60,020 bases of DNA from Actinobacteria bacterium 69-20 (GTDB lineage Bacteria; Actinomycetota; Actinomycetes; Mycobacteriales; Nakamurellaceae), in NCBI GenBank assembly GCA_001897425.1, contig MKSW01000025.1, positions 1 to 60,020 of the forward strand. The letters run 5' to 3'. A program made the translations under genes and the position numbers. Below the pieces are notes generated by a model. The model was not told the DNA's origin, made no database searches, and worked only from the letters and a program-made list of their open reading frames with translations. Shown piece after piece: positions 3,497 through 18,140 of the stretch; position 1 is the stretch's first letter, and each line of letters starts with the position of its first letter.

Positions 3497-4468
3497 CTAG
3501 AACAGGCCCTTGCCGGTGACCGGCTTCGAGGAATCGAACAGCGCGCTGACGGATTCGCCGTCATGGATGCGGCGCATGGCCTCCGCGATCGCGGGCGCCA
3601 CCGACAGCACGGTCAGTTTCTCGTGCCGGTCCGCATCCGCGATGGGCACGGTGTTGGTGCAGACGATTTCCAGCACGTCCGGTTGGCCGCCGATCCGCTG
3701 TACGGCGCCATCGGCGAAGAGCCCGTGCGTGCAGGCAACCCGGATGCTACGCACGCCGGCATCGCGCAACACCCTGATCAGTTCGAGAATGGTTGACCCC
3801 TTGGCGATCTCGTCATCCAGGACGATCACGTCACGCCCCGTCACGTGTCCGATCACCGAGCTGATCGTCACCTTGTCACCGGGCGTGCGCTCCTTCGCGC
3901 CGGCGGCGACCTCGGTGCCGAGCATGCGGGCGAACGCGGCGGCCTCTTTCGCGTTCCCGAGGTCGGGGGAGACGACCGTGGTATTCGAGAGGTCGTGCGA
4001 CGCAAAGTGTGTGGCCAACTCACGGAGCGCGTGCAGGTGGTCCACCGGGACCGAGAAGAAGCCGTGCACCTGGGGGGAGTGCAGCGTCATGGTCAGCACC
4101 CGGCTGGCGCCCGCCGCGACCATCAAGTCGGCCATCAGGCGTCCGCCGATGGAGATGCGTGGCGCGTCCTTCTTGTCGCTGCGCGCGTAGGCGTAGTGGG
4201 GGAGCACAACGGTAGTGCGGGCCGCCGACGCTCCGCGCGCCGCATCGACCATCAGCAGCAGCTCGACCAGGTTCTCCTGCACCGGCTTGACGAGCGGCTG
4301 GATCAGGAAGACGTCGCGCTCCCGGCAATTGGCCTGCAGTTGCACCTCGAGGCAGTCGTTGGCGAAACGTTGTACCCGGACCGGCAGCAGCGGCACGCCG
4401 AGCTCGGAACATACTTCGCCGGCCAGCTCGGGGTGGGCGCTGCCGGAAAAGACTGCGATATCGCGCAC
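3497..4468 (-). CDS. ribose-phosphate pyrophosphokinase family protein
   Basis: 323 residues, the length of PRPP synthetases, which make phosphoribosyl pyrophosphate from ribose 5-phosphate and ATP. Family landmarks are HSPQVHGFFSVPVDHL near 128-143, SPDLGNAKEAAAFA, and a PRPP-binding loop reading VIVLDDEIAKGSTI near 212-225. The canonical loop has DDxxDTGGT, so this copy lacks the usual second Asp-Thr-Gly and looks like a divergent paralogue, not the house-keeping prs. The start is an ATG; no partner gene is obvious. Activity as a true synthetase is likely but not certain. Confidence 0.82.
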   Translation of the reverse strand: MRDIAVFSGSAHPELAGEVCSELGVPLLPVRVQRFANDCLEVQLQANCRERDVFLIQPLVKPVQENLVELLLMVDAARGASAARTTVVLPHYAYARSDKKDAPRISIGGRLMADLMVAAGASRVLTMTLHSPQVHGFFSVPVDHLHALRELATHFASHDLSNTTVVSPDLGNAKEAAAFARMLGTEVAAGAKERTPGDKVTISSVIGHVTGRDVIVLDDEIAKGSTILELIRVLRDAGVRSIRVACTHGLFADGAVQRIGGQPDVLEIVCTNTVPIADADRHEKLTVLSVAPAIAEAMRRIHDGESVSALFDSSKPVTGKGLF

Positions 4469-4576
4469 CGGATCAGGGTGCCAGATCGCCCCGCTCGGCG
4501 CATCACCGGCACCTCGGTGGGAAACACCCGCGCGGCTTCAGCGGCGTTCTAGAGGGAACCTGGCACAGTTGCTGTC

Positions 4577-5023
4577 ATGGCGAATTCGGGGCGAGAACGA
4601 TCCGTGACGATACGGCGAACGGGCCCGGGCGCATTCGTGGCGCGCAACGCCCGCGGGGGCGAGGTGTCGTTCGGGAGCGGGGATGACGACGCCTTCACTC
4701 CGGTCGAGTTGCTGCTCGCCGCGATCGGCGGGTGCAGCGGGATCGACGTCGACCTGATCACGGGCCGCCGCGCTCAACCGGACTCCTTCGAGGTGACCGT
4801 GTCCGCCACGTCGGCGCGCGGGGGCGGGGGAAGCCACCTCGAGGACATATCGGTGGTCTTCGACCTGGTGTTCCCGCCCGGTGACGCCGGGGACGCCGCG
4901 CGCGCGGTACTCCCGGACGCCGTCCGCAAGTCCCACGATCGACTCTGCACGGTCAGCCGGACAGTGGAGTTGCCTACTCCCGTGTCGATGACGGTGTCGA
5001 CGGCGGTCGCGGATGGCGGATGA
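4577..5023 (+). CDS. OsmC family protein
   Basis: 148 residues. OsmC/Ohr proteins are small cytosolic thiol peroxidases or stress proteins. Visible marks are the early VTIRRTGPGAFVARNARGG strands, the first conserved cysteine in AAIGGCSGIDVD (near C55) and the second in HDRLCTVSRTVE (near C124), at roughly the spacing of the catalytic pair. It is more like the broad YhfA/OsmC group than Ohr. It is divergently placed from the PRPP-synthetase paralogue, with about 108 bp between starts. Confidence 0.82.
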   Translation: MANSGRERSVTIRRTGPGAFVARNARGGEVSFGSGDDDAFTPVELLLAAIGGCSGIDVDLITGRRAQPDSFEVTVSATSARGGGGSHLEDISVVFDLVFPPGDAGDAARAVLPDAVRKSHDRLCTVSRTVELPTPVSMTVSTAVADGG

Positions 5024-5080
5024 CGTGCGGCGTCAGTCATGTGGCACACGGCCGGTGTGACGTGAGAGCGGTGGTGCGCG

Positions 5081-5746
5081 GTGGACGGCCGTCCATCGAT
5101 CGGTGACCCGGTCGTCCTGCGCGACGCGGACGGGCTGGTGTATTCCAGCCGCGTGGAAGACGTCGATGACGACATGATCGCCGTCGCGCGTCCGGCCGAC
5201 CTGCGCGCCGCCCTCGAATACCCCGAGGGCATGGAGTTGGAGCTGGTGTGGACCCTCTCGACGGGCATACATGTGCTCCCGGTCGAGCTGGCGGGCACGT
5301 CGGTCGACAACCACATCCGGCTCTGGCATCTCGCCGTCACCGGTGACGGATGGTCCGAGCAGCGGCGAGATTACGTCAGGGTGCCGGTCGTCGGCCGGAT
5401 CGCGCTGGAGCCGGTCGACGACGAGACGGAGCCGGGGCTGGGCGCCGCGGTTGATCCCGATCGGACACTGCACGGCCAACTGGTCGACCTCAGCGAGGTG
5501 GCGACGCAGTGTGCGATGCCCGTGGCGACCGACGACCCCCGCATCGCGGTGGGCACGCCGGTGCGCTGCGAGTTCGGCGTGAACGGGCAGTCGTTCGACA
5601 TCCGCGGCACCGTCGCGATCGTCCGCATCGGCGCCAGCGCTCGCGATACCCGGGTGGTGGTTCGCTTCGACGGGTCGCGCGCCGTCGCGGATGCATTGCG
5701 CAAGCAGGTCTTCGCCATCCAGATCGCCATGCGCCGCGAACGGTAG
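5081..5746 (+). CDS. PilZ-domain protein
   Basis: 221 residues. An N-terminal YcgR-like strand region (residues 1-90) is followed by a PilZ domain starting with QRRDYVRVPV (R95, R96, R100), the arginine motif that binds cyclic di-GMP. The second PilZ motif, normally [DN]xSxxG, appears as DLSEVA at 136-141, so the glycine is lost. The start is a GTG. No flagellar or cellulose genes are nearby. It probably senses cyclic di-GMP, with possibly weakened binding. Confidence 0.72.
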   Translation: MDGRPSIGDPVVLRDADGLVYSSRVEDVDDDMIAVARPADLRAALEYPEGMELELVWTLSTGIHVLPVELAGTSVDNHIRLWHLAVTGDGWSEQRRDYVRVPVVGRIALEPVDDETEPGLGAAVDPDRTLHGQLVDLSEVATQCAMPVATDDPRIAVGTPVRCEFGVNGQSFDIRGTVAIVRIGASARDTRVVVRFDGSRAVADALRKQVFAIQIAMRRER

Positions 5747-5842
5747 GACACCGCGGGCGCGCCGAGCAGGGCGCGGTTGGGTGGCGAGCTGCGCCGTCAT
5801 ACTCGTGTGCGAAGCGTTGGCCGGCGTGGCAGGATTGTCGGG

Positions 5843-6340
5843 ATGGCAAGCGCGACAACGGATCAGCAGCGGCTACGTGATCTCGCCGTGTTGCGCAGAG
5901 TGCGCGACCGGATCGATCGCGACTTCGACCAGCCGCTCGACGTCGAGGCGCTGGCCCGGGACGCCCATCTGTCCGCCGGGCACCTGTCCCGCGAGTTTCG
6001 GCGGGCCTACGGGGAGCCGCCCTACCAGTACCTGATGACGCGGCGCATCGAACGGGCAATGGCGCTGCTGCGCCGCGGCGATCTGACCGTCACCGAGGTC
6101 TGCTTCGCGGTCGGCTGCTCGTCGCTCGGCACATTCAGCACGCGGTTCACCGAGCTGGTCGGGGTGTCGCCCAGCGCCTACCGGCGAGCCGAGGCGGCGG
6201 CGACCCGCGGGATGCCGGCTTGCGTGGCGAAACAGGTCACCAAACCGGTCAGGACATCGACCGGGAAAACCGCCGGGAAACCGGTTGGTAAATCGGTCAG
6301 GAATCGAGAAGCGCCGGCGCGTGGGTTGTCGATAGCCTGA
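5843..6340 (+). CDS. AraC family transcriptional regulator (DNA-binding domain only)
   Basis: 165 residues. Two helix-turn-helix units typical of AraC are visible: LDVEALARDAHLSAGHLSREF and LTVTEVCFAVGCSSLGTFSTRF, followed by VGVSPSAYRR. There is no sensory domain, so it is a stand-alone DNA-binding type. The last 50 residues form an odd Lys/Pro/Val-rich tail with repeats such as KPVRTSTGKTAGKPVGKSVR. The ATG at 5843 fits the domain start. It is 5 nt upstream of the VOC gene, which overlaps the UvrA-like gene, so the three form one operon that it probably regulates. Confidence 0.88.
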   Translation: MASATTDQQRLRDLAVLRRVRDRIDRDFDQPLDVEALARDAHLSAGHLSREFRRAYGEPPYQYLMTRRIERAMALLRRGDLTVTEVCFAVGCSSLGTFSTRFTELVGVSPSAYRRAEAAATRGMPACVAKQVTKPVRTSTGKTAGKPVGKSVRNREAPARGLSIA

Positions 6341-6345
6341 TCGGC

Positions 6346-6753
6346 ATGGACCTCGCCATTCACAGCGTCATGATCCCGCAGACCGATCCGGACGCGGCCA
6401 CCGCCTTCTACCGTGACACGCTCGGTTTCGAGGTGCGCAACGACGTCGGCTACCAAGGAATGCGGTGGATCACCGTCGGCCCGCCCGCTCAACCGGACAC
6501 CTCGATCGTGCTGTATCCGCCGCAGGCCACGCCGGGCCTCACCGAGGCCGAACGGACCATGATCGCCGAGATGATGGCCAAGGGCACGTTCGCGAGCATC
6601 AACATGGCGACCGCCAATGTCGATGCCACTTTTGACGCGGTGCAGGCTGCCGGCGCGGAGGTGGTGCAGGAGCCGACCGATCAGCCCTACGGTATCCGCG
6701 ACTGCGCTTTCCGTGACCCGTCGGGCAATCTGATCCGGATCCAGCAGGCGTGA
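6346..6753 (+). CDS. VOC family (glyoxalase/bleomycin-resistance-like) protein
   Basis: 135 residues, a single vicinal-oxygen-chelate fold: paired beta-alpha-beta-beta-beta modules begin at [20 protein letters not shown] and at [24 protein letters not shown], ending [12 protein letters not shown] with a metal-ligand glutamine. Such proteins are metal-dependent isomerases or dioxygenases, or bind toxic compounds. Its stop overlaps the start of the UvrA-like gene by 4 nt (GTGA). The genomic company of an AraC regulator and a UvrA2-type ATPase suggests a role in drug or xenobiotic tolerance; the substrate is unknown. Confidence 0.85.
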
Positions 6754-9143
6754 CGGTTTCGAGCGGCGCGGTGGCGGGAGCGGCGGCGTGCGCGGCGGCC
6801 GACGGCCATGACGTGATCCGCGTGGTCGGCGCGCGGGTGAACAACCTGAAGGACGTGGCCGTCGAGATCCCCAAGCGGCGGCTGACGGTGTTCACTGGGG
6901 TCTCCGGCTCGGGCAAGACGTCGCTGGTCTTCGACACCATCGCGGCCGAATCCCAGCGCATGATCAACGAGACCTATAGCGCGTTTCTGCAGGGTTTCAT
7001 GCCTACGCTCGCGCGCCCGGACGTCGACCTCCTGGAGGGGTTGACCCCGGCGATCATCGTGGATCAGGAACGCATGGGCGCGAACCCGCGCTCCACCGTC
7101 GGCACGGTGACCGACGCGAACGCCATGCTCCGGATCCTGTTCAGCCGGCTGGGGACGCCGTACATCGGGCCGCCGACGGCCTTCTCGTTCAACGTGCCGC
7201 GCCGCGTCGCCAGCGGCATCATGACGGATTCCAAGGGCGTGAAGACCGTGGTGCGGAAGGCCGTGTACCACGGCGGCATGTGCCCGCGTTGCGAGGGCAT
7301 GGGGTCGGTCTCGGACTTCGACGTGACGGCACTCTACGACGCGGACAAGTCGCTGAACCAGGGCGCGCTGACGGTGCCCGGCTACAGCATGGACGGCTGG
7401 TACGGGCGGATCTTCCGCGGCTCCGGCTTCTTCGACCCGGACAAGCCGATACGCGACTTCACGCAGAAGGAATTGCACGCCCTGCTGCACCAGGAGCCGA
7501 CGAAGATCAAGGTCGACGGCATCAACCTCACCTACGAGGGGCTGATCCCCAAGATCCGAAAGTCCATGCTGTCCAAGGACATCGAATCACTGCAACCGCA
7601 TATCCGGGCGTTCGTGGAGCGCGCCATCGCCTTTGCCCCGTGCCCGGACTGCGGCGGCACCCGGCTGGCCGCGGAGACGCTGACCTGCCGCATCGAAGGC
7701 AGGAACATCGCCGACGTGTGCGCCATGCAGATCGATGCCCTCGCCGCGTGGCTCCGGACGGTGGACGACGCCTCGGTCGGCCCGTTGGTCGCCGGCCTGC
7801 AGCATTTGCTCGACTCCTTCGTCGCGATCGGGCTCGGCTATCTGTCCCTCGATCGTCCGTCGATGACGCTATCCGGGGGAGAGGCCCAACGCGCGAAGAT
7901 GGTGCGCCATCTCGGTTCGGCGTTGACGGACATCAGCTACGTCTTCGACGAGCCGTCCGCAGGCCTGCACCCGCACGACATCGCCCGGCTGAACGTGGTG
8001 CTGCAACGGATGCGGGACAAGGGGAATACGGTGCTGGTGGTCGAGCACCGGCCGGAGATCATCGAGATCGCGGATCACGTCATCGATCTCGGGCCCGGCG
8101 CCGGGGCTGATGGCGGCGAGGTCGTTTTTGAGGGGTCGGTTGGTGCACTGGCCACCAGCGGCACCGCGACCGGCAATTCACTGCGCGATCGGGCGGCCTT
8201 GAAGCCGTCGGTCCGGTCGTCGACCGGTGTGATCCCGGTCCGCGACGCAACGACTCACAATCTGCGTAGTGTCGACGTCGACATCCCGCTCGGCGTGCTC
8301 TGCGTGGTGACCGGCGTGGCGGGATCCGGCAAGAGCTCCCTGATCCACGGATCGGTCGCCGGGCGTGACGGCGTGGTCGCCATCGACCAGAGCGCGATTC
8401 GGGGCTCTCGGCGCAGCAACCCCGCGACGTACACCGGCCTGCTCGATCCGATCCGGAAGGCCTTCGCGGACGCGAACGGGGTGAAGCCCGCGCTGTTCAG
8501 CTCGAACTCCGAGGGCGCCTGCCCGACGTGTCAGGGCGCCGGCGTGATCTACACCGACCTCGGCGTGATGGCCACGGTGGAGACCGTCTGCGAGGACTGT
8601 GAGGGCAAGCGGTTCGAGGCCTCGGTCCTGGAGTACCGGTTCGGGGACAAGGACATCAGCGAGGTGCTGGCGATGTCCGTCGCCGAGGCTTCGGTGTTCT
8701 TCGCGGCCTCGGCGACCAAACTGCCGGCGGCCACGAAGATCCTGCGACGGCTGGCAGATGTGGGGTTGAGTTATGTCAACCTGGGACAGCCGCTGACCAC
8801 CCTGTCTGGCGGGGAACGACAACGCTTGCGGCTCGCCGCCCAGATCGCCGACAAGGCGAGCGTCTACGTCCTCGACGAGCCGACCATCGGTCTGCACCTG
8901 GCGGATGTGCGGCACCTGCTGGGTCTACTGGACCGGTTGGTGGACGCGGGTACGTCGGTGATCGTCATCGAACATCACCAGGCCGTCATGGCGCATGCCG
9001 ACTGGATCATCGATCTGGGACCGGGCGCCGGCAGCGACGGCGGACGCATCGTCTTCGAAGGAACGCCTGCCGAACTCGTCGCGGACGGCTCCACGCTGAC
9101 CGGCCAGCACCTGGCGCGCTATGTGGCGGCTGTTGACGCGTGA
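6750..9143 (+). CDS. UvrA-like ABC ATPase (UvrA2/DrrC type)
   Basis: 797 residues against about 950 for UvrA. It has the tandem ABC layout of UvrA: Walker [10 protein letters not shown] near 50, CxxC zinc modules (CPRCEG, CPDCGG), signature [11 protein letters not shown], Walker [15 protein letters not shown], then a second Walker [22 protein letters not shown] and [11 protein letters not shown] with [11 protein letters not shown]. The shorter length fits paralogues lacking the UvrB-binding region, known for self-protection against DNA-intercalating drugs. The GTG start overlaps the VOC stop by 4 nt. Probably removes bound ligands from DNA; not the nucleotide-excision-repair UvrA. Confidence 0.88.
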
Positions 9144-9494
9144 CCCGGTGATTGTATTAATGCGTCACCGTGACGATTTAAGGGAACAAGTCTGAGCCTC
9201 AACATGAGGTTCGGGGTGTGGTTGAACGGGTCGGTTGCTTGAGTGACGCCTGGAGGACGTTGAGTGCGTCGACGTCGGGTCGGTCCCGTTCTGGGCTGAG
9301 CCAGCGTTCGCCAGTGCCGCCGGCGGTTCCTGCTTGATGTCGGCGTCGCCGGAATTTCCGCACCCGGTCCGCGCATCGAGCCGTCTCACGGAGATGTAGC
9401 AGCGCAACGGTGATCGTCGGGCGTCGCGGTTCCGCCGACTACCGACCAGGGCCCAAATACTCACCGTCAACCTTAGGTCCAAGGTTCGGGAACG
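9144..9494. other. gene-poor gap left of dif
   Basis: No convincing complete gene in about 350 bp. Just after the UvrA-like stop there is a short palindrome (CGTCAC and GTGACG, 9163-9175) followed by ATTTA. On the minus strand one frame ending with TGA at 9199 reads like coding sequence over about 45 residues (for example GERWLSPERDRPDVDALN) but has no proper start, so it may be a gene relic. Confidence 0.4.
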
Positions 9495-9522
9495 TTCGCC
9501 GATAATGTACATTATGTCAACT
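9495..9522 (+). other. dif: dif site (XerCD chromosome-dimer resolution)
   Basis: A 28-bp site with dif architecture. The 11-bp XerC arm is TTCGCCGATAA (9495-9505), the 6-bp spacer is TGTACA (9506-9511), and the 11-bp XerD arm is TTATGTCAACT (9512-9522). The inner part forms a 14-bp perfect palindrome (9502-9515). It agrees at all but one position with the actinobacterial dif consensus as I remember it, and keeps the ATAA and TTATGT cores of the E. coli site. XerC/XerD recombine here, activated by FtsK, so the site marks the replication terminus. Only one copy is visible in the window, which argues against a pair bounding an integrated element. Confidence 0.87.
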
Positions 9523-9640
9523 TACGACAAAATGGCGAACATTCGCTCTCCGGCTCGCCGCTGCCCTGCTCGCCATCACGCGGCAGGTCGCTTCTGGGAA
9601 TCGGAGGGCGACGAGCGCGGCGCCTCGTAGCAGGACACAC

Positions 9641-10216
9641 CTACCCGGCGGTGTGCCGACACAGATCGCCGAGCTTGCGGACGCGATCATCGTCGGCGCC
9701 CACGAGATCGGTCACCCAGCGAATCGCCTCCGCCAGGTCGAGCGTCGAATCGTGCGCGTCCCGCAAAGCCAGAATGTCCGGCCAGTCCTTCGGGCGATCG
9801 AACAGCGCCTTGAAGACCGCCAGGTCCGTCGCGGACAGTATCTCCACCGACGTCTTGAGCATGGGCACGGTCAGACACCGCTGCGCCGCGACGCGGTGCA
9901 ACTCATCGGATGCGAAGAACAGATCCAACGGGATCGGCACCTGCGAGGCGACGGGCCAAAAGATGCGTACCTGCTCGTCGCGCGCAATCACGGCCAGGGT
10001 CTCGTCGGTCCAGGGCACGTCGGCAGGTAGGGCGTCGAGCACATCCGACGCACGGTCGCCCGGCACCCACACGTTGATATCGATGTCCTGTGTCGCCCGC
10101 GGATCATCGACGTGGTAGGCCAGCGCCAGTGCGCCGCCGACCGCATTCGGGATTCCGGCATCCCGCAGCCGGTGGTGGACGGCGATCGTCCGTTCGAGGA
10201 CGATCGGGCCACTCAT
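9641..10216 (-). CDS. nucleotidyltransferase-fold protein of a two-gene TA-like module
   Basis: 191 residues. The N-terminal region has the nucleotidyltransferase pattern: NAVGGALALAYHVDDPRATQDIDINVWV (residues 24-51), with the GG, then DID acidic motif; this resembles AbiEii-like and other small NTases that transfer nucleotides to tRNA or proteins. Its ATG overlaps the stop of the upstream HTH gene by 4 nt, the usual arrangement of antitoxin first, toxin second. It starts the accessory strip 120 bp from dif. Toxin activity is inferred from family and context only. Confidence 0.75.
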   Translation of the reverse strand: MSGPIVLERTIAVHHRLRDAGIPNAVGGALALAYHVDDPRATQDIDINVWVPGDRASDVLDALPADVPWTDETLAVIARDEQVRIFWPVASQVPIPLDLFFASDELHRVAAQRCLTVPMLKTSVEILSATDLAVFKALFDRPKDWPDILALRDAHDSTLDLAEAIRWVTDLVGADDDRVRKLGDLCRHTAG

Positions 10217-10590
10217 CGCGCTCCCCCGGCGCGGATCGTCCTGAACGGCGGAAATCTCAACGCCCGCTGCTGCCGCCGCGGCAGGGCCATTCCCATGTCG
10301 ACCACCCGCTCCAGCACCTCGGCACGTTGCCGGACCGTCAACGGCGTCGCGTGCATCGCGTCGTTCGGCCGCGCCCAAACCGGAACCCTCTCCGGAACCG
10401 CCGACGACCACGCCAGGTCCAGTTGCAGGCCGACACTCGCGCCGAGTCGGGCCAATTGCGCAACGGACGGCTGGATCCGGCCACTCAAGTAACCGTCCAG
10501 GAGCGACCGCGAGATTCCCGAGCACGCCGCGAGTTCCGATTTCGTCAGGCCGCGAGCCAGTAGCTCCTCGATCGCCTCCGCTGCCGTCAT
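10213..10590 (-). CDS. XRE-type HTH protein, putative antitoxin of the NTase pair
   Basis: 125 residues. It has an early helix-turn-helix: ELLARGLTKSELAACSGISRSLLDGYLSGRIQPSVAQLARLGASVG. The C-terminal part is rich in Arg and probably contacts the partner. An upstream in-frame start exists at 10635 but would run through a likely operator (10599-10620), so the ATG at 10590 is preferred. The stop overlaps the NTase ATG by 4 nt. Probably represses its own promoter. Confidence 0.78.
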   Translation of the reverse strand: MTAAEAIEELLARGLTKSELAACSGISRSLLDGYLSGRIQPSVAQLARLGASVGLQLDLAWSSAVPERVPVWARPNDAMHATPLTVRQRAEVLERVVDMGMALPRRQQRALRFPPFRTIRAGGAR

Positions 10591-10598
10591 ATCGCCAC

Positions 10599-10620
10599 TG
10601 TACGTACTATATTCAGTACA
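10599..10620. promoter_or_regulatory. operator/promoter of the HTH-NTase module
   Basis: Inverted half-sites TGTAC and GTACA separated by 12 nt lie just upstream of the HTH start. On the minus strand the spacer holds TATAGT, a good -10 hexamer, placed to start transcription about a dozen nt before the ATG. Autorepression by the HTH protein is the natural reading, an inference. Confidence 0.5.
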
Positions 10621-10652
10621 TGCAATGCCCCGCACTCGTCGTCCGTGCGCGC

Positions 10653-11006
10653 TTACCGGCGGGTGAAGGTTGCGCCCGCCGCCGTGACTGCAAGGAACAG
10701 GCAGGGCTCGCCATCTCGCGGCCAGCGGTAGCCCCGGAACGGCGTGCCTGCCGGGATGACGAACAGCTCCCCCGCCCGGACGATGACGGGATCACGATCC
10801 TCCAGCTCCAATCGGAGCGTGCCGCGAACCACGAACAGCAGGTCGTCGTGATCCATCACCGACTCGGTCGGTTCGACCTCCTCATGGTCCTTCCAGATCC
10901 ACCACGCTTGGAGATCCGGGCCGTCGTGGAGCACGCCGACCGCACCGTACGTGGAGTCCTGCCTTGATAGCGCTTGAAGCGCGGTCACGTCGAGCGGGTC
11001 CATCAT
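10653..11006 (-). CDS. cupin-domain protein
   Basis: About 117 residues. A single small cupin barrel: HDDLLFVVRGTLRLELEDRDPVIVRAGELFVIPAGTPFRG contains the two cupin motifs with a reduced metal-ligand set. An upstream in-frame start at 11033 is possible; I prefer the double ATG at 11003-11006. There is no partner gene. A decayed copy of the same gene lies about 0.9 kb to the right, so this gene was once duplicated. Function unknown. Confidence 0.75.
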   Translation of the reverse strand: MMDPLDVTALQALSRQDSTYGAVGVLHDGPDLQAWWIWKDHEEVEPTESVMDHDDLLFVVRGTLRLELEDRDPVIVRAGELFVIPAGTPFRGYRWPRDGEPCLFLAVTAAGATFTRR

Positions 11007-11040
11007 CGGATTTTTGCACTCCGCGGGCGACACGCAAGCA

Positions 11041-11328
11041 CAATAAAGACCGCCCGCAGCCGGATGTACTCACGAACGACGGCAACGAGAACTGACGAAA
11101 GCAAGCCGACCGGGCTGGCGTCCCGTATGCCACACGACAGCGGGATGCCAGCCCGTCCGCACCTCATACGTCAAAATCGTCACCATTCAAGCTCGGCTGC
11201 AGAACAACCTGGGGGCTTGCAGCGCTATTGGCCGGCGAAGTGGTCGAGTACCCGCGGCCGCGTTACCGACAGCTCATCAACAATCCCATTCAGGTATCGA
11301 TCGGCCGATCACGACCTAAGCACGCCGT
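11041..11328. other. gap with a coding-like relic
   Basis: No intact gene. On the plus strand the frame ending at the TGA at 11345-11347 reads as plausible protein over about 40 residues (from ALLAGEVVEYPRPRYRQLIN to a lysine-histidine end) without a start codon. It could be the 3' remnant of a lost gene. The base composition is lower in GC than neighbouring genes. Confidence 0.3.
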
Positions 11329-11750
11329 TGATCTCGGAAATGGCTGACCGCCTACTACGCTCGAGAGATAGCACGGGCACTCATCAACGATGTGGGGGCT
11401 CCCGGCGGGCTCGTGTGAACCGGGCGAGGACTTTACCGGCGCTGCGATCCACGAGCTTGCCCAGGAATCCGGGCTTCGCGTGACCCGTGAGGACCTGGTG
11501 TCGTTCGGCAGCCTGTCCGACCCGCGTGTGCACACGCTGCACTACCCGAATGGCGACGTGGTGCATGCGTTCGCGATGTGTTTCGTCACTCGCAACTGGT
11601 CAGGACAACTCCGTGCAAATCCAGACGAGGTCCTTAACCATCAGTTCGCCGACCTCAAGTCTCCGCCCACACCGACGCACCCACCCACATGCACAGTCCT
11701 GCAGATGTACGACGCGTTCGCATTGACAGGCTGTTTCCAAGCCCGCTTAG
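11329..11750 (+). pseudogene. Nudix hydrolase pseudogene (frameshifted)
   Basis: From 11390 one frame reads WGLPAGSCEPGEDFTGAAIH and goes on through ELAQESGL, the Nudix box, but with the conserved Arg as His and one catalytic Glu as Gln. It continues through HYPNGDVVHAFAMCFVTR to the family-typical C-terminus THPPTCTVLQMYDAFALTGC. The preceding strand of the fold (ADRLLRSRDSTGT) lies in a different frame just upstream, so a frameshift separates N-terminus and box. The original stop is lost and the frame runs on to 12391. No intact protein can be made. Confidence 0.7.
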
Positions 11751-11943
11751 CACGTGGGACGACGGCGGGTCACGTTGCGCCAGATTCAATAGGAGCGTGC
11801 CGCCAAGCACGAAGAGCAGGTCGTTGTGGCCATCACCGATTCGGTCGCTTCGACATCCTCGTAGCCCTTCCGGATCCACCACGCCCGGGCCGTCGTGGAT
11901 CCTGCGGACCGCACAGTACACGGTACGAGACACTGCCTAGTGC
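11740..11943 (-). pseudogene. degenerate second copy of the cupin gene
   Basis: Fragments matching the intact cupin at 10653-11006 are scattered over frames: IHDGPG (intact LHDGPD), EDVEATESVM (intact EEVEPTESVM), and NDLLFVLGGTLLLNLAQRDP (intact DDLLFVVRGTLRLELEDRDP). At DNA level the two loci align over about 150 bp with several small deletions, one of about 9 bp. Frameshifts and lost ends make it a pseudogene. It sits directly behind the Nudix relic. Confidence 0.75.
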
Positions 11944-12030
11944 GACTGGTGATCGTCCTCGACTCCTCCGGCATCGAACGCAACGACTGCTTCGTCACCG
12001 CCGACCTGGCCGCCGCAGGCTCCGGGGTCG

Positions 12031-12555
12031 TCACACGCTGTGCGGGATGCTGGCCGAGCCGCTGCCAGGATTCGTCTCCACCAGCGCGAGCAGCTGCCGT
12101 GTGTGGCCGGGGATCTCCTGCTCTGCCAAACCTGCGATCAACTCTCGCAACGGAATCTGCATATCGACCAAGAGCGTGCCCTTCGACACCAGCAGCGTCG
12201 GGATCGGCGTGTCGAGATCGCTGTCGCCGAGAACGGGGCGGCCAAGCGCACCCAGCGCGTCGCATTGCCCCCGGATCCGCGCCACCAATCCTGCCGTGCC
12301 TCCGGCACGGTCGATGGTGCGGCCGATGGTCCACGTGTCCTGGGCGATCCGGTTGTCACACGTGGGACTGCACCCGGAGGCCACCGCGTAGGCGGTCGCG
12401 ATGGTCATCGCGTTCACCATGCTGACGTGGGCCAGGATCTGGTCGGCATCCCATTCACCCGGCGGCGGTGGGGTTCTGCGGTCGCCGGCGTTGGTGACCA
12501 CGTCGGCGGCATCCAGCAGCGAGTCGATAGCGCGGCGAAGTTGTGCGGTATCCAC
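12031..12555 (-). CDS. DinB/maleylpyruvate-isomerase-N-like protein
   Basis: 174 residues. A four-helix-bundle protein of the DinB/MDMPI group: LRRAIDSLLDAADVV, PPPPGEWDADQILAHVSMVNAM with the first metal-binding His, and the late LRELIAGLAEQEIPGHTRQL with another. Such proteins are often mycothiol-dependent transferases or isomerases in actinomycetes. The start is a GTG preceded by an AAGGA-type SD sequence. It is 98 bp downstream of, and probably cotranscribed with, the ArsR-SRPBCC gene. Substrate unknown. Confidence 0.7.
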   Translation of the reverse strand: MDTAQLRRAIDSLLDAADVVTNAGDRRTPPPPGEWDADQILAHVSMVNAMTIATAYAVASGCSPTCDNRIAQDTWTIGRTIDRAGGTAGLVARIRGQCDALGALGRPVLGDSDLDTPIPTLLVSKGTLLVDMQIPLRELIAGLAEQEIPGHTRQLLALVETNPGSGSASIPHSV

Positions 12556-12653
12556 GATGACGCAGTCCTTGTCTCCAGTAGGCTTCGAGGGTGCTGGGGC
12601 GAGATTTCCCGGTTCGAGATTCCGGTGTCGGCAGGGTGCCGACGACGAAGGTG

Positions 12654-13484
12654 TCAGTGGCCAAATTCCATCTCCCAGGGAGCCTGCGGTAGGGTCTCCC
12701 CCGTCTCGAGCAGCGACTTGAGGTTGGCCAGGACGGCGGGCCAACCGCTGGAGATTCCTTCCAGCATCTCGACATTGGGCAGATTCTCGTGAGTGACGGT
12801 CAACCTCACGATGTCCTGATGTCGCTCTATCCGGAACGTGACGACGGAGGCCTCCCGCCGGCCGACCTCGGCCGGGGAATCCTCGAAGGTCATCACCAAA
12901 AGGGTTGGGGGCGTGGCCTGCAGAACCCTCCCGGTGACATCGACGGTGCCGGATCCGTCGGCCCTCCGATGCTCCCAGGCCGAACCGGGCTGCCAATCGG
13001 AGACATTTGCATGGCCCCAGTACCGGGCTGTCAGGTCGGCGTCGGTTAGCGCACGCCACACCTGCTCCGGCGTCGCGCGGATGTAGGTGACGTAGACGTA
13101 GGTGGGGATGGTGGCCCTGGTGGATTCAGTGGACTCGGTGGTCATGGCATCTTCCTCTGCGTGATCCTTGATCGCCTGCAGTGCAGTCAATCGGGGCTTG
13201 TCGAAACCGGATATCCAACGCCGGTCGATCTGCTGGATCGGAACCGGGTTGAGGTAGTGCAGCCGCGTGCGCCCCCGCCGGACGGCGGTGACGAGGTTGG
13301 CGCGCACCAGGATGTCGAGGTGCTGGGTGACGGACTGCCGCGCCATGTGCAGGTCGGCACACATCTCCCCCAGCGTCTGGCCGTTGCGCTCCCGCAGGCG
13401 GTCCAGCAGTTGCCGGCGGGTGCGGTCAGCCAGGGCGCGGAACACCGCGTCCTGGGCCACCCGCTCCCCGTTCACGCCAATCAT
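12654..13484 (-). CDS. ArsR-type HTH regulator fused to SRPBCC (AHSA1) domain
   Basis: 276 residues. An N-terminal winged helix (residues 5-90, FRALADRTRRQLLDRLRERN and CADLHMARQSVTQHLDIL) is followed by an SRPBCC ligand-binding barrel (about 125-270, YVYVTYIRATPEQVWRALTD). In many relatives these are two adjacent genes; here they form one open frame across the junction at MTTESTESTRAT. No cysteine metal site is evident, so it probably senses an organic ligand. The ATG at 13484 overlaps the likely -10, and a GTG three codons later would suit a leaderless transcript. Likely represses itself and the downstream DinB-like gene. Confidence 0.85.
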   Translation of the reverse strand: MIGVNGERVAQDAVFRALADRTRRQLLDRLRERNGQTLGEMCADLHMARQSVTQHLDILVRANLVTAVRRGRTRLHYLNPVPIQQIDRRWISGFDKPRLTALQAIKDHAEEDAMTTESTESTRATIPTYVYVTYIRATPEQVWRALTDADLTARYWGHANVSDWQPGSAWEHRRADGSGTVDVTGRVLQATPPTLLVMTFEDSPAEVGRREASVVTFRIERHQDIVRLTVTHENLPNVEMLEGISSGWPAVLANLKSLLETGETLPQAPWEMEFGH

Positions 13485-13526
13485 TATGCAGGTAACTGGC
13501 TGCGTATTGCAAGAACAGGAGTTACC
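13483..13526 (-). promoter_or_regulatory. promoter and operator of the ArsR-SRPBCC gene
   Basis: On the minus strand TTGCAA (13507-13512) and CATAAT (13483-13488) stand 18 bp apart, a good sigma70-type promoter. An inverted repeat GGTAACT (13491-13497) and AGTTACC (13520-13526) encloses the -35 element, the expected place for an ArsR-family repressor site. Transcription would begin at or just before the GTG at 13475. Confidence 0.55.
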
Positions 13527-13561
13527 CAGACAATGTCCGGGCCAGATCTCTCGCCCGCGTG

Positions 13562-13990
13562 TCAGGACCTGGACGCGTCTTCTGGCGGCGGCAACGCGAC
13601 GACCTCGAGGTCGTCGATTCCGTCGAAGCCAGCGGCGTTGAAGGTATAGACGGGCAGCCCAGCCGCCATCGCCGTCGCAGCGATTAACGCGTCGAACGCC
13701 CGGGCTTTCGGTTTTCGTCCACCCGCTCGTTGGCCACTGGCTACGTGGCCGAAAGCTTGAGCCGCCGCGGTGTCGAACGGCAGTGGGTCGCCGTAATTCG
13801 TCTCGGCGTTCTGCAACTGGGCCTGTCGTGCCGCGCGGGTCGCGAGGTCGTCGGTCACGAGCGGCCCCACGGTCAGTTCCGCCAAAGTCACAGTGGTGAT
13901 CACAGCCTCGTCGGGCAGATCGCCTTCGCTCAACTCCCCCAGGCGAAGCACTGCCGAAGTGTCGAGGATACCCTTCGCGTGCCTCACCAC
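13562..13990 (-). CDS. VapC-type PIN-domain ribonuclease toxin
   Basis: 142 residues. PIN fold: ILDTSAVLRLGEL carries the first acidic residue, TLAELTVGP the conserved Glu, and KARAFDALIAATAMAAGLPVYTFN the Asp pair near residues 99-120. Such toxins cut tRNA or rRNA. The GTG start overlaps the antitoxin stop by 7 nt. Belongs to the first of three VapBC modules in this strip. Confidence 0.87.
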   Translation of the reverse strand: MVRHAKGILDTSAVLRLGELSEGDLPDEAVITTVTLAELTVGPLVTDDLATRAARQAQLQNAETNYGDPLPFDTAAAQAFGHVASGQRAGGRKPKARAFDALIAATAMAAGLPVYTFNAAGFDGIDDLEVVALPPPEDASRS

Positions 13991-14229
13991 CGTTGATCCA
14001 CTACGGCATCGATATCGCGCCGTAGCCGGTCAGCGTCGACGGCTGGTAGCTGCCTCGCCCGTGCGATGAGTTCGGCCGGGACGAGACTTCTCCGGCGAAG
14101 CGGGCGAAGTTCGGCAACGGGACTGCCGTCCTTCGTCACCGTGACACTCTCACCTCGCGCCACTCGGTCCAGCACCCGCCCGCCGTGGTTTCGGAGGTCG
14201 CGGACACTGACTTCATGCGCGTTATTCAT
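13984..14229 (-). CDS. Phd/YefM-type antitoxin
   Basis: 81 residues. MNNAHEVSVRDLRNHGGRVLDRV and ESVTVTKDGSPVAELRPL match the Phd/YefM DNA-binding fold, and the C-terminal LIARARQLPAVDADRLRRD region would bind and neutralise the PIN toxin encoded immediately downstream. It lies inside a much longer antisense frame that shadows the neighbouring aldo/keto reductase gene; the ATG at 14229 is the real start. Confidence 0.85.
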   Translation of the reverse strand: MNNAHEVSVRDLRNHGGRVLDRVARGESVTVTKDGSPVAELRPLRRRSLVPAELIARARQLPAVDADRLRRDIDAVVDQRW

Positions 14230-14238
14230 GGTCGCAAT

Positions 14239-14254
14239 GTATCGCGGGTGATAC
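14239..14254. promoter_or_regulatory. operator candidate of the Phd-VapC module
   Basis: Inverted half-sites GTATC and GATAC, 6 nt apart, lie 10 nt before the antitoxin ATG. On the minus strand TACATT sits 6 nt from the ATG, suggesting a leaderless transcript with the operator over the -10. Autoregulation is inferred. The rest of 14255-14505 is noncoding apart from the SD sequence of the next gene. Confidence 0.45.
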
Positions 14255-14505
14255 GCGCGCAATCTGCGAGCGATATTGCGATCAAGACCAGCACGGCGAC
14301 GGCACAGCGCACAGGGGTCGGTTATGTCCGCAATACCGCAGCTCGTGCGGCGCCGGGTGCGTCTGCATCGCCCGATGACGAAGCTCGCCGCCGTAGCGGC
14401 GAAACGGTGCCCGGGAGTCCTGGCGATCGACCGTCTTCGGTCGATGGTTGACTGATCATCGTAGCGCCGCGCGACGGAGCGCGGAGAGTGAAGGAGGTCG
14501 CTGCG

Positions 14506-15564
14506 GTGGAATACCGGTATCTGGGACGGTCGGGGCTGCGGGTCTCGGCGCTGACCATGGGCACGATGACGTTCGGCGGCGTCGGCTGGGCGAGCATGGT
14601 GGGGTCGGCAGGTATCGACGAGGCGACACGGCAAGTGGACATGTGCCTCGATGCCGGCGTCACGTTGTTCGACACGGCGAACTCGTATTCCACAGGCCTG
14701 TCCGAGGAGATCCTGGGCGAGGCGCTCGGCGGCCGGCGCGACGAGGTACTGATCGCGACCAAGGTCCGAATGCGCATGGGCGACGGCCCCAACGAACAGG
14801 GCTTGTCCCGATACTCCGTCATCCGCGAATGCGAGGCGAGCCTCAAGCGCCTGGGCACCGACCACATCGACCTGTACCAGGTGCACGAGTGGGACGGCCG
14901 GACGCCGCTCGACGAAACGCTTGGTGCGCTCGACGATCTCGTTCGCGCCGGCAAGGTGCGCTACATCGGCGTCTCCAACCATGCGGCGTGGCAGCTGATG
15001 AAGGCGCTCGGCGTCTCCGACCGTGCCGGACTCGCCCGGTTCGCCAGCCAGCAGATCCACTACTCGCTGCAGGCGCGGGACGCGGAGTACGAACTCCTGC
15101 CGGCCGCGCTGGACCAGGGGCTCGGCGTACTGGTGTGGAGCCCGCTCGCGGGCGGGCTGCTCACCGGCAAGTACCGGCGCGGTGAGGCACCGCCGGACGG
15201 GACCCGGCGCTTTGCCGGCTGGACCGAGCCACCGGTCGAGGACGAGGGCAAGCTCTACGCGATCGTCGATGCGCTCGTGGAAATCGCTGCCGCACACGGT
15301 GTTTCGGCCGCACAGGTGGCGTTGGCGTGGCTCTTGCAGCGTCCCGCCGTGACCTCCGTGATCATCGGCGCGCGCACCGGTGAACAGCTCGCGGACAACC
15401 TCGCGGCCGCCGACCTGGTGCTCGCGCCGGACGAGGTCGCCGCCCTTGACGCCGTGTCGGCGATCCCGCTGCTCTATCCGTACTGGCACCAGGCCCGCAC
15501 GGTGTCCGATCGCCTCTCCCCCGCCGAACTCAGCCTGATTCAGCGCTACCTCGACGAAGGCTGA
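14506..15564 (+). CDS. aldo/keto reductase
   Basis: 352 residues. NADPH-dependent carbonyl reductase of the AKR TIM-barrel family. The catalytic tetrad is present: Asp and Tyr in FDTANSYSTG, Lys in LIATKVR, and His in YQVHEWD; the cofactor end SVIIGARTGEQLADNL is typical. The start at GTG 14506 is set by an AAGGAGG SD sequence at 14491-14497, 8 nt upstream; an earlier GTG at 14488 has none. Substrate unknown; similar to general-stress AKRs. Confidence 0.9.
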   Translation: MEYRYLGRSGLRVSALTMGTMTFGGVGWASMVGSAGIDEATRQVDMCLDAGVTLFDTANSYSTGLSEEILGEALGGRRDEVLIATKVRMRMGDGPNEQGLSRYSVIRECEASLKRLGTDHIDLYQVHEWDGRTPLDETLGALDDLVRAGKVRYIGVSNHAAWQLMKALGVSDRAGLARFASQQIHYSLQARDAEYELLPAALDQGLGVLVWSPLAGGLLTGKYRRGEAPPDGTRRFAGWTEPPVEDEGKLYAIVDALVEIAAAHGVSAAQVALAWLLQRPAVTSVIIGARTGEQLADNLAAADLVLAPDEVAALDAVSAIPLLYPYWHQARTVSDRLSPAELSLIQRYLDEG

Positions 15565-15648
15565 GCGCCACCGACCGCGTGATCACCGGGTATCGCGATG
15601 TCCGAGCGCGCGGCGCCGCAGGCCCGCTCGTCGGGCTGTTTCATCGGG

Positions 15649-16044
15649 CTAAGGGACTTCGACGAAGGTCACGTCGCACGGTGGCTTCGCGCGGGCGAGC
15701 CGGCCGTCGGTGGTGACGAGCCGGCAGCGGTGCCTCTCGGCGAGTGCCACGTACAGCCCATCCAGAACCCTGATCGAATCGCGAAGCTCGAACGCGCGCC
15801 GCAGCTGATCGTGATCGGTCGGGACGACCTCTTGAACGAGGGCAGCCGCATCGGCCAGGGCGCGCCGCGCCTGCACAGCGCTGAGTTCGTCGGCGCGGAG
15901 CAGGCGGATCACCGCGGAGCTCACTTCGGCGAGCTGGTGCCCCGGCGCGATGATGTGCTCACCCTCCATCTGCGCCAGCACCGCATCTTTCGCCGGGCGG
16001 TCGGCGACCACGTCCACGAGCGCCGACGCATCCAGCACGATCAC
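15649..16044 (-). CDS. VapC-type PIN-domain toxin (second module)
   Basis: 131 residues. MIVLDASALVDVVAD carries the first catalytic Asp, QLAEVSSAVIRLL the Glu, and RVLDGLYVALAERHRCRLVTTDGRL the later acidic residues of the PIN active site. Length is standard for VapC. Its ATG overlaps the antitoxin stop by 4 nt. Confidence 0.9.
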   Translation of the reverse strand: MIVLDASALVDVVADRPAKDAVLAQMEGEHIIAPGHQLAEVSSAVIRLLRADELSAVQARRALADAAALVQEVVPTDHDQLRRAFELRDSIRVLDGLYVALAERHRCRLVTTDGRLARAKPPCDVTFVEVP

Positions 16045-16268
16045 GCCCCGAACTCCTCGTCAACGTCGGACATCAGCTCCTCCGTACCGATGGCGCCCAC
16101 CGCGTCCGAACGGACCGGGCGGCGCCGCGCGGCGGCGATCCACGACGAGTTCTCGTCCGCGGAGAGTGCCTCGGCGAACGCGCGCTGCGCCAGCTGTGAG
16201 AGCGGCAACTCGCGGCGGCGCATCTCGTCGTACATCGCGTCCGGGATGTAGATGCTGACCTTGGGCAT
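16041..16268 (-). CDS. VapB-type antitoxin (second module)
   Basis: 75 residues. The N-terminal MPKVSIYIPDAMYDEMRRRELPL is the strand-helix start of a ribbon-helix-helix DNA-binding domain, and the acidic C-terminus ELMSDVDEEFGA is the usual toxin-binding tail. On the minus strand TACATT stands 6 nt before the ATG, the same spacing as at the first module, so the message is probably leaderless. Confidence 0.85.
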   Translation of the reverse strand: MPKVSIYIPDAMYDEMRRRELPLSQLAQRAFAEALSADENSSWIAAARRRPVRSDAVGAIGTEELMSDVDEEFGA

Positions 16269-16337
16269 ACCCCCAATGTACCCCTAGCAACGGCCACGAT
16301 GGGTCCTGCCGATCCACCACGTGCCGCCCAGCAGCCC

Positions 16338-17183
16338 CTATTTAATGCCCTGGTCGATGAGGGCCTGCACAGCGGCCACGCCAGCCGGGTCTCCGTCGAT
16401 CTGCACGTCACCGCCGCGGGTCCAGGCCCACAGTGCGAGGTCCTGCAGCGGTCCGGTCACCGTCACGGCGGCGGTGGCGTCCGGCTGGGCTCGCACGGCG
16501 CGCCACATATCGAACGCGGTGCCGGACTCCGGCCCGGTGCCGGTCCAGTGCCCCACCTCCACCACGCAGCGGTAGTCCGAGTCCGTGGCCAGGATCCCGG
16601 CGACGGTGAGCGGCTCGTACACCGCCCAGTCGGGCAACCAGCCCCACATCACGTCCACGCAGTGGTCGACCGCCCCTGCGGCGACGGCTGCGTCGATGGG
16701 CGAAACGGCAACGCCTCCAGCGAGTTCCGCGTCCACGCGGTGCATCGTCGCCTCGTAGGTCTGCATGCGACGGGTGAATCCCACGGTCTGATCCGCCGGC
16801 CACCACGTCCAGCGCGGCGCAGCGTCGTCCAGTGCCTGCAACTGCGCCAGAAGACTCTCGGTCGCGTGGGCGCGAACGGGCAGCATCTCCGCCATCGTGC
16901 CGGGCCGCTCGGGAGCGGCCTTGTCCACGGCATCGGCATCCTCGTCCGAGGTCACGTTCCCGCCGAGGATGCGCGCCCAGAAGGTGTGCACCTCGGTGAG
17001 ATGCCAGAGCAGATCCGCGGCCGTCCATTCCGGGCAGGTCGGGCAGTGCGCGTCCGGCGCCGTGTCTGCCAGCACATCGGCGAAACGCTGCGCCTCGGCG
17101 CGGATCACGGCGATTCGGTCGATCGGGTCGGTGTCGGTGCCGTTGTGGTTGTCGGGTTCGGGGCTGCTGTGTGCGTCGGTCAT
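16338..17183 (-). CDS. maleylpyruvate-isomerase-N family (TIGR03083-like) protein
   Basis: 281 residues. An actinobacterial MDMPI-type helical bundle: CPTCPEWTAADLLWHLTEVHTFWARIL with the His-containing motif, TMHRVDAELAGG with the second His, and a C-terminal sterol-carrier-like part (VGHWTGTGPESG to the end). These proteins commonly use mycothiol, whose ligase mshC is in this window. The ATG at 17183 fits the family; a start 10 codons earlier is possible. Function unknown. Confidence 0.82.
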   Translation of the reverse strand: MTDAHSSPEPDNHNGTDTDPIDRIAVIRAEAQRFADVLADTAPDAHCPTCPEWTAADLLWHLTEVHTFWARILGGNVTSDEDADAVDKAAPERPGTMAEMLPVRAHATESLLAQLQALDDAAPRWTWWPADQTVGFTRRMQTYEATMHRVDAELAGGVAVSPIDAAVAAGAVDHCVDVMWGWLPDWAVYEPLTVAGILATDSDYRCVVEVGHWTGTGPESGTAFDMWRAVRAQPDATAAVTVTGPLQDLALWAWTRGGDVQIDGDPAGVAAVQALIDQGIK

Positions 17184-17241
17184 GCCCGCCACCATAGGCG
17201 CCCTCTCCGACATTCACGCTCGATCGGCGGAGTCCGCGCGC

Positions 17242-17313
17242 TTACCCCCCGGAGATCGAGCCGACCAGGAGCAGCGGCTCACGCCCCTCGGCCACCGGCG
17301 CAAGCACCGACAC
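17242..17313 (-). pseudogene. 3' relic of a MoaD/ThiS-like gene
   Basis: Twenty-three codons and a stop read VSVLAPVAEGREPLLLVGSI then SGG. They match the end of the intact MoaD-like protein at 18179-18535 ([15 protein letters not shown] then SGG), and the DNA agrees at about four of five bases over roughly 70 bp. The rest of the gene is missing. With the intact copy it brackets the third VapBC module in direct orientation. Confidence 0.7.
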
Positions 17314-17343
17314 CATGGCCGCCCGCCGCCGCACGCTACTCAT

Positions 17344-17369
17344 GCAGGCATGAATGCATTCATGCCTGC
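17344..17369. promoter_or_regulatory. 26-bp perfect palindrome, VapBC operator
   Basis: The half-site GCAGGCATGAATG is followed directly by its reverse complement, giving an uninterrupted 26-bp palindrome. It ends 12 nt before the antitoxin ATG. TAATCT right after it (6 nt from the ATG) would serve as the -10 of a leaderless message, so a protein bound here would block the promoter. The obvious binder is the ribbon-helix-helix antitoxin of the module. Confidence 0.75.
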
Positions 17370-17381
17370 TAATCTTGAGCC

Positions 17382-17681
17382 ATGGGGCAGCTGACCGTCA
17401 GGATCCCGGATGACCTGCTGGATCGAGTCCGCACCGTGGCCCGTTCCCGCGGATTCAGCATGAACGAATACGCCGTCCGCGTGCTCGGTGCCGCAACCGA
17501 TCCGGACCTCGCCGGATCCGAGATCGACCGTTTGCGGGAGCGCCTGGCGTCGGCAGGCCTTCTCGAACCGCCGCAACCGCGCCGAGCCGGAAGACCCACC
17601 AGAGCCCGGCTCGACGCGGCGCGCGCAGCCGCGGGCGCCGGACGAACCCTCGCCGACATCGTGTCCGACGGACGCGGGTGA
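17382..17681 (+). CDS. ribbon-helix-helix antitoxin (third VapBC module)
   Basis: 99 residues. MGQLTVRIPDDLLDRVRTVARSRGFSMNEYAVRVLG is an Arc/CopG-type DNA-binding domain; the basic, Ala/Arg-rich C-terminus ends with RTLADIVSDGRG. It differs from the second module's VapB in having a long basic tail. Its stop overlaps the toxin GTG by 4 nt. Confidence 0.85.
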   Translation: MGQLTVRIPDDLLDRVRTVARSRGFSMNEYAVRVLGAATDPDLAGSEIDRLRERLASAGLLEPPQPRRAGRPTRARLDAARAAAGAGRTLADIVSDGRG

Positions 17682-18124
17682 GCGTCTTCGCGGATTCGTC
17701 GGCCTTGGTGAAGTTGTACGCCGACGAGCCGGGGTATCGAGAGATCCGCCGGTTGCCGGGCATGCTCGTGAGCGTGCTTGCCCGGGTGGAAGTGCCGGCA
17801 GCGATGTGGCGTAAAAGCCGGACAGGGGAACTGGACTCCGACGCTGCGTCAGTTCTCGTCGCGGAATTCGAGGCCGACTATTTCGGGACGCACACAACGG
17901 CGCCGCGCTTCGTGGCCGTGACGACGGCACCTGCCGTGCTAGACACTGCGGCACGCCTGAGCGCGGTGCACGGGCTGCGGGCCTACGGCGCGGTGCAGCT
18001 CGCGTCGGCGGTCGCCGCTCGCGATGCGGACCCGGGGTGCGACGAGTTAGCGGTGTTCGACGCGCAGCTCCGCACCGCCGCGGCGATCGAGCGATTCCGG
18101 CTCCTCCCAGCCGAGATCTCCTGA
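17678..18124 (+). CDS. VapC-type PIN-domain toxin (third module)
   Basis: 148 residues. VFADSSALVKLYADEPG has the first acidic residue, VSVLARVEVPAAMW the conserved Glu, and LRAYGAVQLASAVAARD plus ELAVFDAQL the later Asp residues. It starts with GTG in a 4-nt overlap with the antitoxin. It is the only plus-strand TA pair here and lies between the MoaD-like relic and the intact MoaD-like gene. Confidence 0.88.
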   Translation: MSVFADSSALVKLYADEPGYREIRRLPGMLVSVLARVEVPAAMWRKSRTGELDSDAASVLVAEFEADYFGTHTTAPRFVAVTTAPAVLDTAARLSAVHGLRAYGAVQLASAVAARDADPGCDELAVFDAQLRTAAAIERFRLLPAEIS

Positions 18125-18140
18125 TCCGCAGGGCATCTCG

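Follow-up and report, generated by a model that had tools for sequence, protein, structure and literature searches.

Chromosomal dif in a Nakamurella species: a single actinobacterial-type site on which polar octamers converge

We propose that the 28 bp at positions 9495–9522 (+ strand) of the window, by which we mean the whole stretch of DNA analysed here (60,020 bases, the whole of contig C25), are almost certainly the chromosomal dif site of this Nakamurella species, at which the two replichores meet and at which chromosome dimers would be resolved by XerC and XerD under the guidance of FtsK and of the octamer YGGGGGAG. The site is an ordinary, well-conserved actinobacterial dif at the terminus of the chromosome, as an earlier note on this DNA had correctly observed, and that placement is supported by the single match in the genome, by the corresponding sites of the whole genus, by the position opposite dnaA in relatives, by the GC skew of one relative and by the polarity of every octamer in the window. 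The terminus of the chromosome is thereby placed within 2.3 kb. Neither the type of the site nor the octamer is new, and the interest of the analysis lies mainly in two by-products, an element inserted at the dif of a sister genome and a possible terminus on a plasmid.

Results

A Single dif Site in the Window and Its Counterparts in the Genus

The letters of the site, read directly, are exactly those that the earlier note gave: an XerC-side arm TTCGCCGATAA (9495–9505), a 6-bp centre TGTACA (9506–9511) and an XerD-side arm TTATGTCAACT (9512–9522), all on the + strand. They agree at all but one position with what we take to be the actinobacterial dif consensus. A search of the whole window with up to 3 mismatches returned this one match, and none was found in dinucleotide shuffles (n = 100). 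The same tolerance gave one match in the complete draft of the genome (43 contigs, 4.48 Mb, 98% complete) and none for a reversed control pattern, so that the single copy expected genome-wide was found. With a shorter core pattern and 2 mismatches one further, looser site appears in the same genome, on contig C42, and no better dif match was found elsewhere in the draft. The window has no match in Rfam.

The site lies in a gap in the gene calls (9144–9640) between a UvrA-like gene and the next frame, which begins at 9641. Besides dif the gap contains one ORF of 115 amino acids (9165–9512, − strand), which starts inside dif, was accepted by a simple gene caller and has no Pfam family match. The left neighbour of dif is the UvrA-like ABC ATPase gene (6750–9143, + strand), whose product Pfam itself assigns to ABC_tran and which we presume to be UvrA; a protein 98% identical to it is encoded in the sister genome G014, on the contig that carries half a dif site. 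To the right, two overlapping frames on the − strand occupy 9641–10635 and encode proteins of 294 amino acids (no Pfam match) and 140 amino acids (an HTH match), and proteins similar to these are encoded near dif on contigs C130 and C133 of G014. A conserved gene neighbourhood around dif was looked for in 12 relatives and rejected: G014 has most of the right-hand genes in common with the window, and the others few. G006 has UvrA-like (72%) and glyoxalase-like (59%) genes next to dif, and the other relatives have single shared genes; the best UvrA-like match lies about 15 kb from dif in N. lactea, about 28 kb in N. aerolata and far off in G016.

A dif-type core, sought with the shorter pattern and 2 mismatches, is present in 17 of 17 Nakamurella genomes. 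Within the XerC-side arm GCCGATAA is identical in all 17 genus sites and within the XerD-side arm TTATGTCA is identical in 13, and the centre is TGTACA in seven and another sequence in ten, both arm cores being identical in six of these ten. Across the 17 sites the three outermost bases at either end are variable, so that matches there carry little weight, and it is because of the variable positions that a search with the exact 28-mer and 3 mismatches finds a site in only 4 of the 17 genomes. The core search returned 26 sites in all (reversed control, 0), that is, nine beyond one per genome, distributed over six genomes, and one of these nine is probably contamination.

Position of dif Relative to dnaA and Strand Composition

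The position of dif was calculated arithmetically from the dif and dnaA positions in the six relatives that are assembled as one contig. Expressed as a fraction of the chromosome, the distance from dnaA is 0.476 in G003, 0.477 in G007, 0.517 in G010, 0.476 in G011, 0.502 in G013 and 0.477 in G016, and dif is thus roughly opposite dnaA in all six (range 0.476–0.517). The orientation of dif relative to dnaA is the same in five of the six and reversed in G010 (C1, near 3130808). A second dif-like site of G007 has the same single mismatch and lies at about 0.03 of the chromosome from dnaA; because the two sites tie in mismatches and one of them is opposite dnaA, the choice of dif in this genome rests on position. 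For G016, four further, less good dif-like sites were set aside.

DNA primase-like and helicase-like genes lie around the second site of G007 (C1, 2557143). The two G016 regions that contain extra sites (C1, 4468000–4487999 and 1119000–1138999) are among the samples of lowest GC content (0.652 and 0.653); both have a pair of dif-like sites in the same direction, 7.8 and 15 kb apart respectively. One of these regions (1119000–1138999) has a ThiF-domain gene and genes for an rve-type integrase and for an RHS-repeat protein predicted to end in a nuclease toxin.

The contig analysed here ends at 60,020, and the switch of strand bias was followed in one sampled relative, G016, and in the octamers of the window. 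Forty-three samples of 20 kb were taken from G016, two of them on the islands that contain extra dif-like sites. Of the 22 samples that run as far as dif, the dif-holding one included, 18 have positive GC skew, as against 3 of the 21 beyond it, and the best single breakpoint falls between the dif-holding sample and the next. In the window itself GC skew is +0.035 to the left of dif and −0.004 to the right, which has the right sign and is too weak to be used alone. The earlier note had also argued for a terminus from the strands of the flanking genes, and this part of its case did not hold: by a simple gene caller 6 of 9 genes on the left are on the + strand and only 23 of 46 on the right are on the − strand, an even division that makes gene orientation uninformative.

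Polar Octamers Around dif

The polarity of YGGGGGAG is the best local evidence that dif marks the terminus. All 20 copies in the window point toward dif, the four on the left being forward and the 16 on the right reverse, and the switch falls between 7874 and 10221. The forward copies are at 873–880, 3964–3971, 4197–4204 and 7874–7881, the last before dif; the first reverse copy after dif is at 10221–10228, and the remaining 15, all on the − strand within 10767–59245, are at 10767, 12696, 13365, 13934, 15516, 18419, 21873, 27317, 34984, 41930, 44276, 46645, 50584, 53905 and 59238.

The motif was found de novo in G016, where CGGGGGAG (75:3) is the most leading-strand-biased of all octamers that occur 60 times or more in 40 of the 43 samples. 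Around the dif of the 16 other genomes, which include the window, CGGGGGAG occurs 54 times toward dif and once away from it, the window (60 kb, as against 20 kb or less for the others) supplying 12 of the 54 and G013 having no copy. A related octamer, TGGGGGAG, is polar in the same way (33:3 in G016 and 26:1 in the dif regions of the 16 other genomes), and CGGGGGAT is partly skewed in G016 (30:9); most one-base variants are about even there (CGGCGGAG 87:86, CGGGGGTG 48:49), with a few partly skewed. Among the top ten octamers of G016, only CGGGGGAG and GCGGGGGA, which overlap, are polar in the test set. We gave up CGGGGGAG as a candidate for a new guide motif, as it had already been printed for Corynebacterium.

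The polarity holds regardless of gene strand. For 13 of the 17 Nakamurella genomes the genes around dif were called, and there YGGGGGAG points toward dif in 71 copies (34 sense, 31 antisense, 6 intergenic) and away from it in 2. The polarity also extends beyond the genus: the dif regions of other actinobacteria (24, left from 26 loci after two of Nakamurella were set aside; 176 kb in total) give 88:1, two of them having no copy, and among octamers with 12 or more copies CGGGGGAG ranks first once more. At these 24 loci the other octamers of the same composition, 55 in number, give a total of 436:396; GCGGGGGA, GGGGGAGC and GGGGAGCG, all of which overlap the motif, are polar as well, and some lean the opposite way (for example, GGAGGCGG 7:29). 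The octamer counts per 20 kb of G016 look higher near dif than near dnaA. In the regions of G016 and G007 that carry extra dif-like sites the octamer is too scarce for a judgement (0 to 3 copies per region).

An Insertion at the dif Site of a Sister Genome

The sister genome G014 is an assembly of 260 contigs, 96% complete and with 3% contamination, in which the flanks of the window dif are found on two different contigs. The right flank corresponds to contig C130, with main pieces 87–95% identical that begin 26 bases before a complete dif, and the left flank corresponds to contig C191, in which the XerC arm, TGTACA and one further base are followed, in place of the XerD arm, by DNA that has no match in the window. 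To the left of its dif, C130 also has no match in the window except for the approximately 26–31 bases that adjoin dif, and the two half sites, taken together with this flank, share 92% identity over 50 bases. Because one junction is complete and the other is without an XerD arm, something has joined at the centre of the G014 dif, in the sequence that corresponds to 9506–9511 of the window. G014 thus has an integration at dif with hybrid att sites, and this insertion supports the view, as natural evidence, that the site recombines.

The two ends of the element are positions 1–1665 of C191 and 1–2111 of C130, and its middle is absent from these contigs. As judged from its predicted proteins, and with moderate confidence on our part, the element is probably filamentous-phage-like, and we have not filed it as an inovirus. 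It encodes a replication-like protein of 400 amino acids with a faint likeness to RstA of the filamentous phage SMA6: at E values up to 10 three phage records match, of which two are this RstA (E 7) and the best is a hypothetical protein from Sphingopyxis phage VSN-002 (E 3). Compared with SMA6 RstA among 11 proteins the value is 9.9e-6, where SMA6 was chosen after the collection search and is not an independent choice. Phage B5 Orf9 was tried as a relative in a pairwise test and rejected. The replication-like protein has no match in the phage collection at 1e-5, in viral_contigs, among plasmids or solved structures, or in Pfam, PHROGs and NCBIfam. It is found in 1 of the 17 genus genomes, G014, and across the order 3 of 397 genomes give a match, G014 and two at 1e-4 to 4e-4, which we dismissed as chance, the frames having stops and no dif nearby. 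A 101-amino-acid protein of the element has a weak likeness to phage ssDNA-binding proteins (phrog_2866, 4.9e-4) and no counterpart in viral_contigs or the phage collection, and four frames of 35–55 codons appear by eye to encode single-span membrane-like proteins and have no family match. A search of G014, whose contigs here lack the middle of the element, for Zot, the morphogenesis ATPase, gave nothing over the cut-off.

A third contig, C133 (3,211 bp), has a second complete dif of G014 and pieces 72–86% identical to the window. It was considered as a part of the element and rejected: its flanks are those of another species and, given the 3% contamination of G014, it is probably a contaminant contig.

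dif-Like Sites on Plasmids

The looser site of the genome analysed here is at 3451–3471 of contig C42 (55,456 bases), within a frame of low score; about 400 bases further along, past a small frame, is the start of a zeta-toxin gene, and the contig also carries a ParA-like gene at about 22.2–23.0 kb and a TraG/TraD-like gene. C42 has 17 copies of YGGGGGAG, of which the six within 3943–20319 are all reverse and the 11 within 24625–53826 are all forward, and if the contig is circular then all 17 point toward the dif-like site, and the place from which they diverge is near the ParA gene. The ends of the contig have no overlap, and we infer the circle; the divergence point was fitted rather than predicted. 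The GC skew of C42 stays above zero between about 7.5 and 47 kb, contrary to what its reverse octamers between 4 and 20 kb would lead one to expect, and so does not switch with the octamers. C42 is a probable plasmid with a possible terminus at its dif-like site, with which its GC skew does not fit.

Two plasmid-like contigs of other Nakamurella genomes (G005:C13 and G012:C177) have their nearest octamers pointing toward the dif-like sites and the further ones mixed. The dif-like pattern matched 213 records, mainly from Enterococcus, and out of 40 of them we selected ten actinobacterial plasmids by hand; the ten (L151–L160) are from Gordonia, Arthrobacter, Rhodococcus, Mycolicibacterium, Curtobacterium and Citricoccus. 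Their octamers are 63:13 toward versus away from the dif-like site within 20 kb, 35:3 within 10 kb and 24:0 within 5 kb. Five of the plasmids have no exception, three have one exception each, and two are mixed (Citricoccus 10:8, Gordonia YC-JH1 2:2). No listed gene lies beneath the dif-like sites of the ten. In three of them (L153, L155 and L156) a tyrosine-recombinase/integrase gene, an HTH gene and a third gene adjoin the site, the third gene being annotated as a recombinase in L155 and L156.

The Xer and FtsK Machinery

The genome encodes one FtsK-gamma domain (2.3e-23), an XerD above the NCBIfam cut-off (339.2 versus 329.6) and an XerC candidate that scores below its own cut-off (306.9 versus 335.15). 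The FtsK gamma domain aligns with solved FtsK gamma domains, and the presumed reading helix is GYNRAARIIEQME in chain 2ius and GFAKAGRLMDLME here, where we take 2ius to be the FtsK of E. coli and the compared helix to be the one that reads DNA. This difference would be compatible with the recognition of a different octamer and proves nothing.

Discussion

The arrangement of the terminus leads us to propose a conventional mechanism. FtsK at the closing septum would be steered by the YGGGGGAG octamers, which point inward on both sides of dif, and would then reach XerC and XerD bound to the two dif arms and trigger strand exchange across TGTACA, by which chromosome dimers would be resolved. We infer the reading of YGGGGGAG by FtsK, the binding of these arms by the Xer proteins and dimer resolution itself, and the dif site and the true meeting point of the forks may not coincide. 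The weak points of the proposal are the draft in 43 contigs, a skew test in one relative, the tied second site of G007, the weak GC skew of the window, the even gene orientation to the right of dif and an XerC candidate below its cut-off.

That the site might instead be a dif-like copy brought in by a plasmid or another mobile element, with the true dif in an assembly gap, is given some plausibility by the extra dif-like sites of the genus, which are not rare (nine in 6 of 17 genomes, even if one is probably contamination), and by those of actinobacterial plasmids. We regard this as highly improbable, since the site is the only match within 3 mismatches in its own genome, in G014 the flanks of both sides adjoin the corresponding site, and 20 of 20 octamers converge on it over 60 kb. 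It is barely conceivable that the core is the binding site of another regulator and resembles dif by chance: ATAATGTACATTAT is perfectly palindromic, like many operators, but ten of the 17 genus sites have a centre other than TGTACA, with the arm cores unchanged in six of them as would be expected of dif, and the neighbouring genes vary by species (of 12 relatives G014 shares most and G006 two). The position roughly opposite dnaA in all six relatives and the flip of octamer polarity at the site also argue against a regulator.

A different objection leaves the terminus where we place it and treats the polarity of the octamer as nothing but the G-richness of the leading strand, with no role in guiding FtsK. 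The leading strand of G016 is indeed slightly G-rich, the related octamers TGGGGGAG and CGGGGGAT are skewed too, and the binding of the octamer by FtsK is presumed here. We nevertheless consider the objection unlikely to be right, given that most one-base variants are even in G016 and that the 55 octamers of the same composition are nearly balanced in sum outside the genus, where the three polar ones overlap the motif and a few are skewed oppositely. Our preferred reading is that 9495–9522 is the chromosomal dif and that the octamers around it would guide FtsK.

In practical terms, the actinobacterial dif core and (T/C)GGGGGAG can together call the terminus in a draft genome from a single contig. 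It is possible, if somewhat short of probable, that even modest plasmids of Actinomycetota (55 kb) carry a chromosome-like terminus and that the same sites admit an undescribed filamentous-phage-like lineage into chromosomes; if so, plasmid and chromosome dimers would be resolved by the same septum-coupled machine. C42 thus makes a testable question of FtsK control over the dimers of Actinomycetota plasmids well below the 250-kb rule of Enterobacteriaceae, and the G014 element does the same for the existence of Xer-integrating filamentous phages in this phylum.

Comparison With Known Systems

The octamer has a well-known analog in E. coli, where the KOPS GGGNAGGG, which is like YGGGGGAG a G-rich polar octamer, converges on dif. 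At the actinobacterial sites KOPS itself is only 31:19 in the 24 dif regions outside Nakamurella and 42:32 at the ten plasmids. The closer precedent is in Corynebacterium, whose architecture imparting sequences (AIMS) are G(A/T/C)GGGGGA and (T/C)GGGGGAG (PMC2830990, PMC3219685, PMC3022926, PMC3350403), the second of which is the octamer found here. As reported for C. aurimucosum, the two octamers number 856 on the leading strand versus 61 on the lagging strand, and the switch in their strand bias marks its dif (PMC2830990). Unlike in those reports, the octamer is seen here in Nakamurella, in the dif regions of other genera and at the dif-like sites of plasmids.

The dif site itself has the features of the Frankia alni dif and of the 66 predicted actinobacterial dif sites of Kono et al. 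(2011; PMC3025954), with which it has in common the length of 28 bp, the arm cores GCCGATAA and TTATGTCA, the 6-bp centre and the position at the terminus. By our own count it is identical to the F. alni dif, as printed there, at 24 of 28 bases and differs at 4, and Nakamurella has no mention in the main text of that paper (PMC3025954).

The junctions in G014 resemble those of IMEX, among them filamentous phages that use dif by means of Xer, such as VGJphi (PMC5357621): there is one complete dif, and the other junction has the XerC arm and the centre only, a layout described in that source for Xer-exploiting elements with a poor XerD arm of their own. The differences from the IMEX are an actinobacterial host, a replication-like protein that finds nothing in the phage collection at E 1e-5, and the missing middle of the element. 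For the plasmid-like contig C42 the comparison is with the large replicons of enterobacteria, where the clustering of KOPS is reported to be significant in 41% of plasmids above 75 kb and FtsK-controlled Xer sites are described as the rule above 250 kb (PMC11724359). In both cases, provided that C42 is a circle, a secondary replicon has an Xer site on which polar octamers converge, and C42 differs in its size of 55 kb and in the octamer that it carries.
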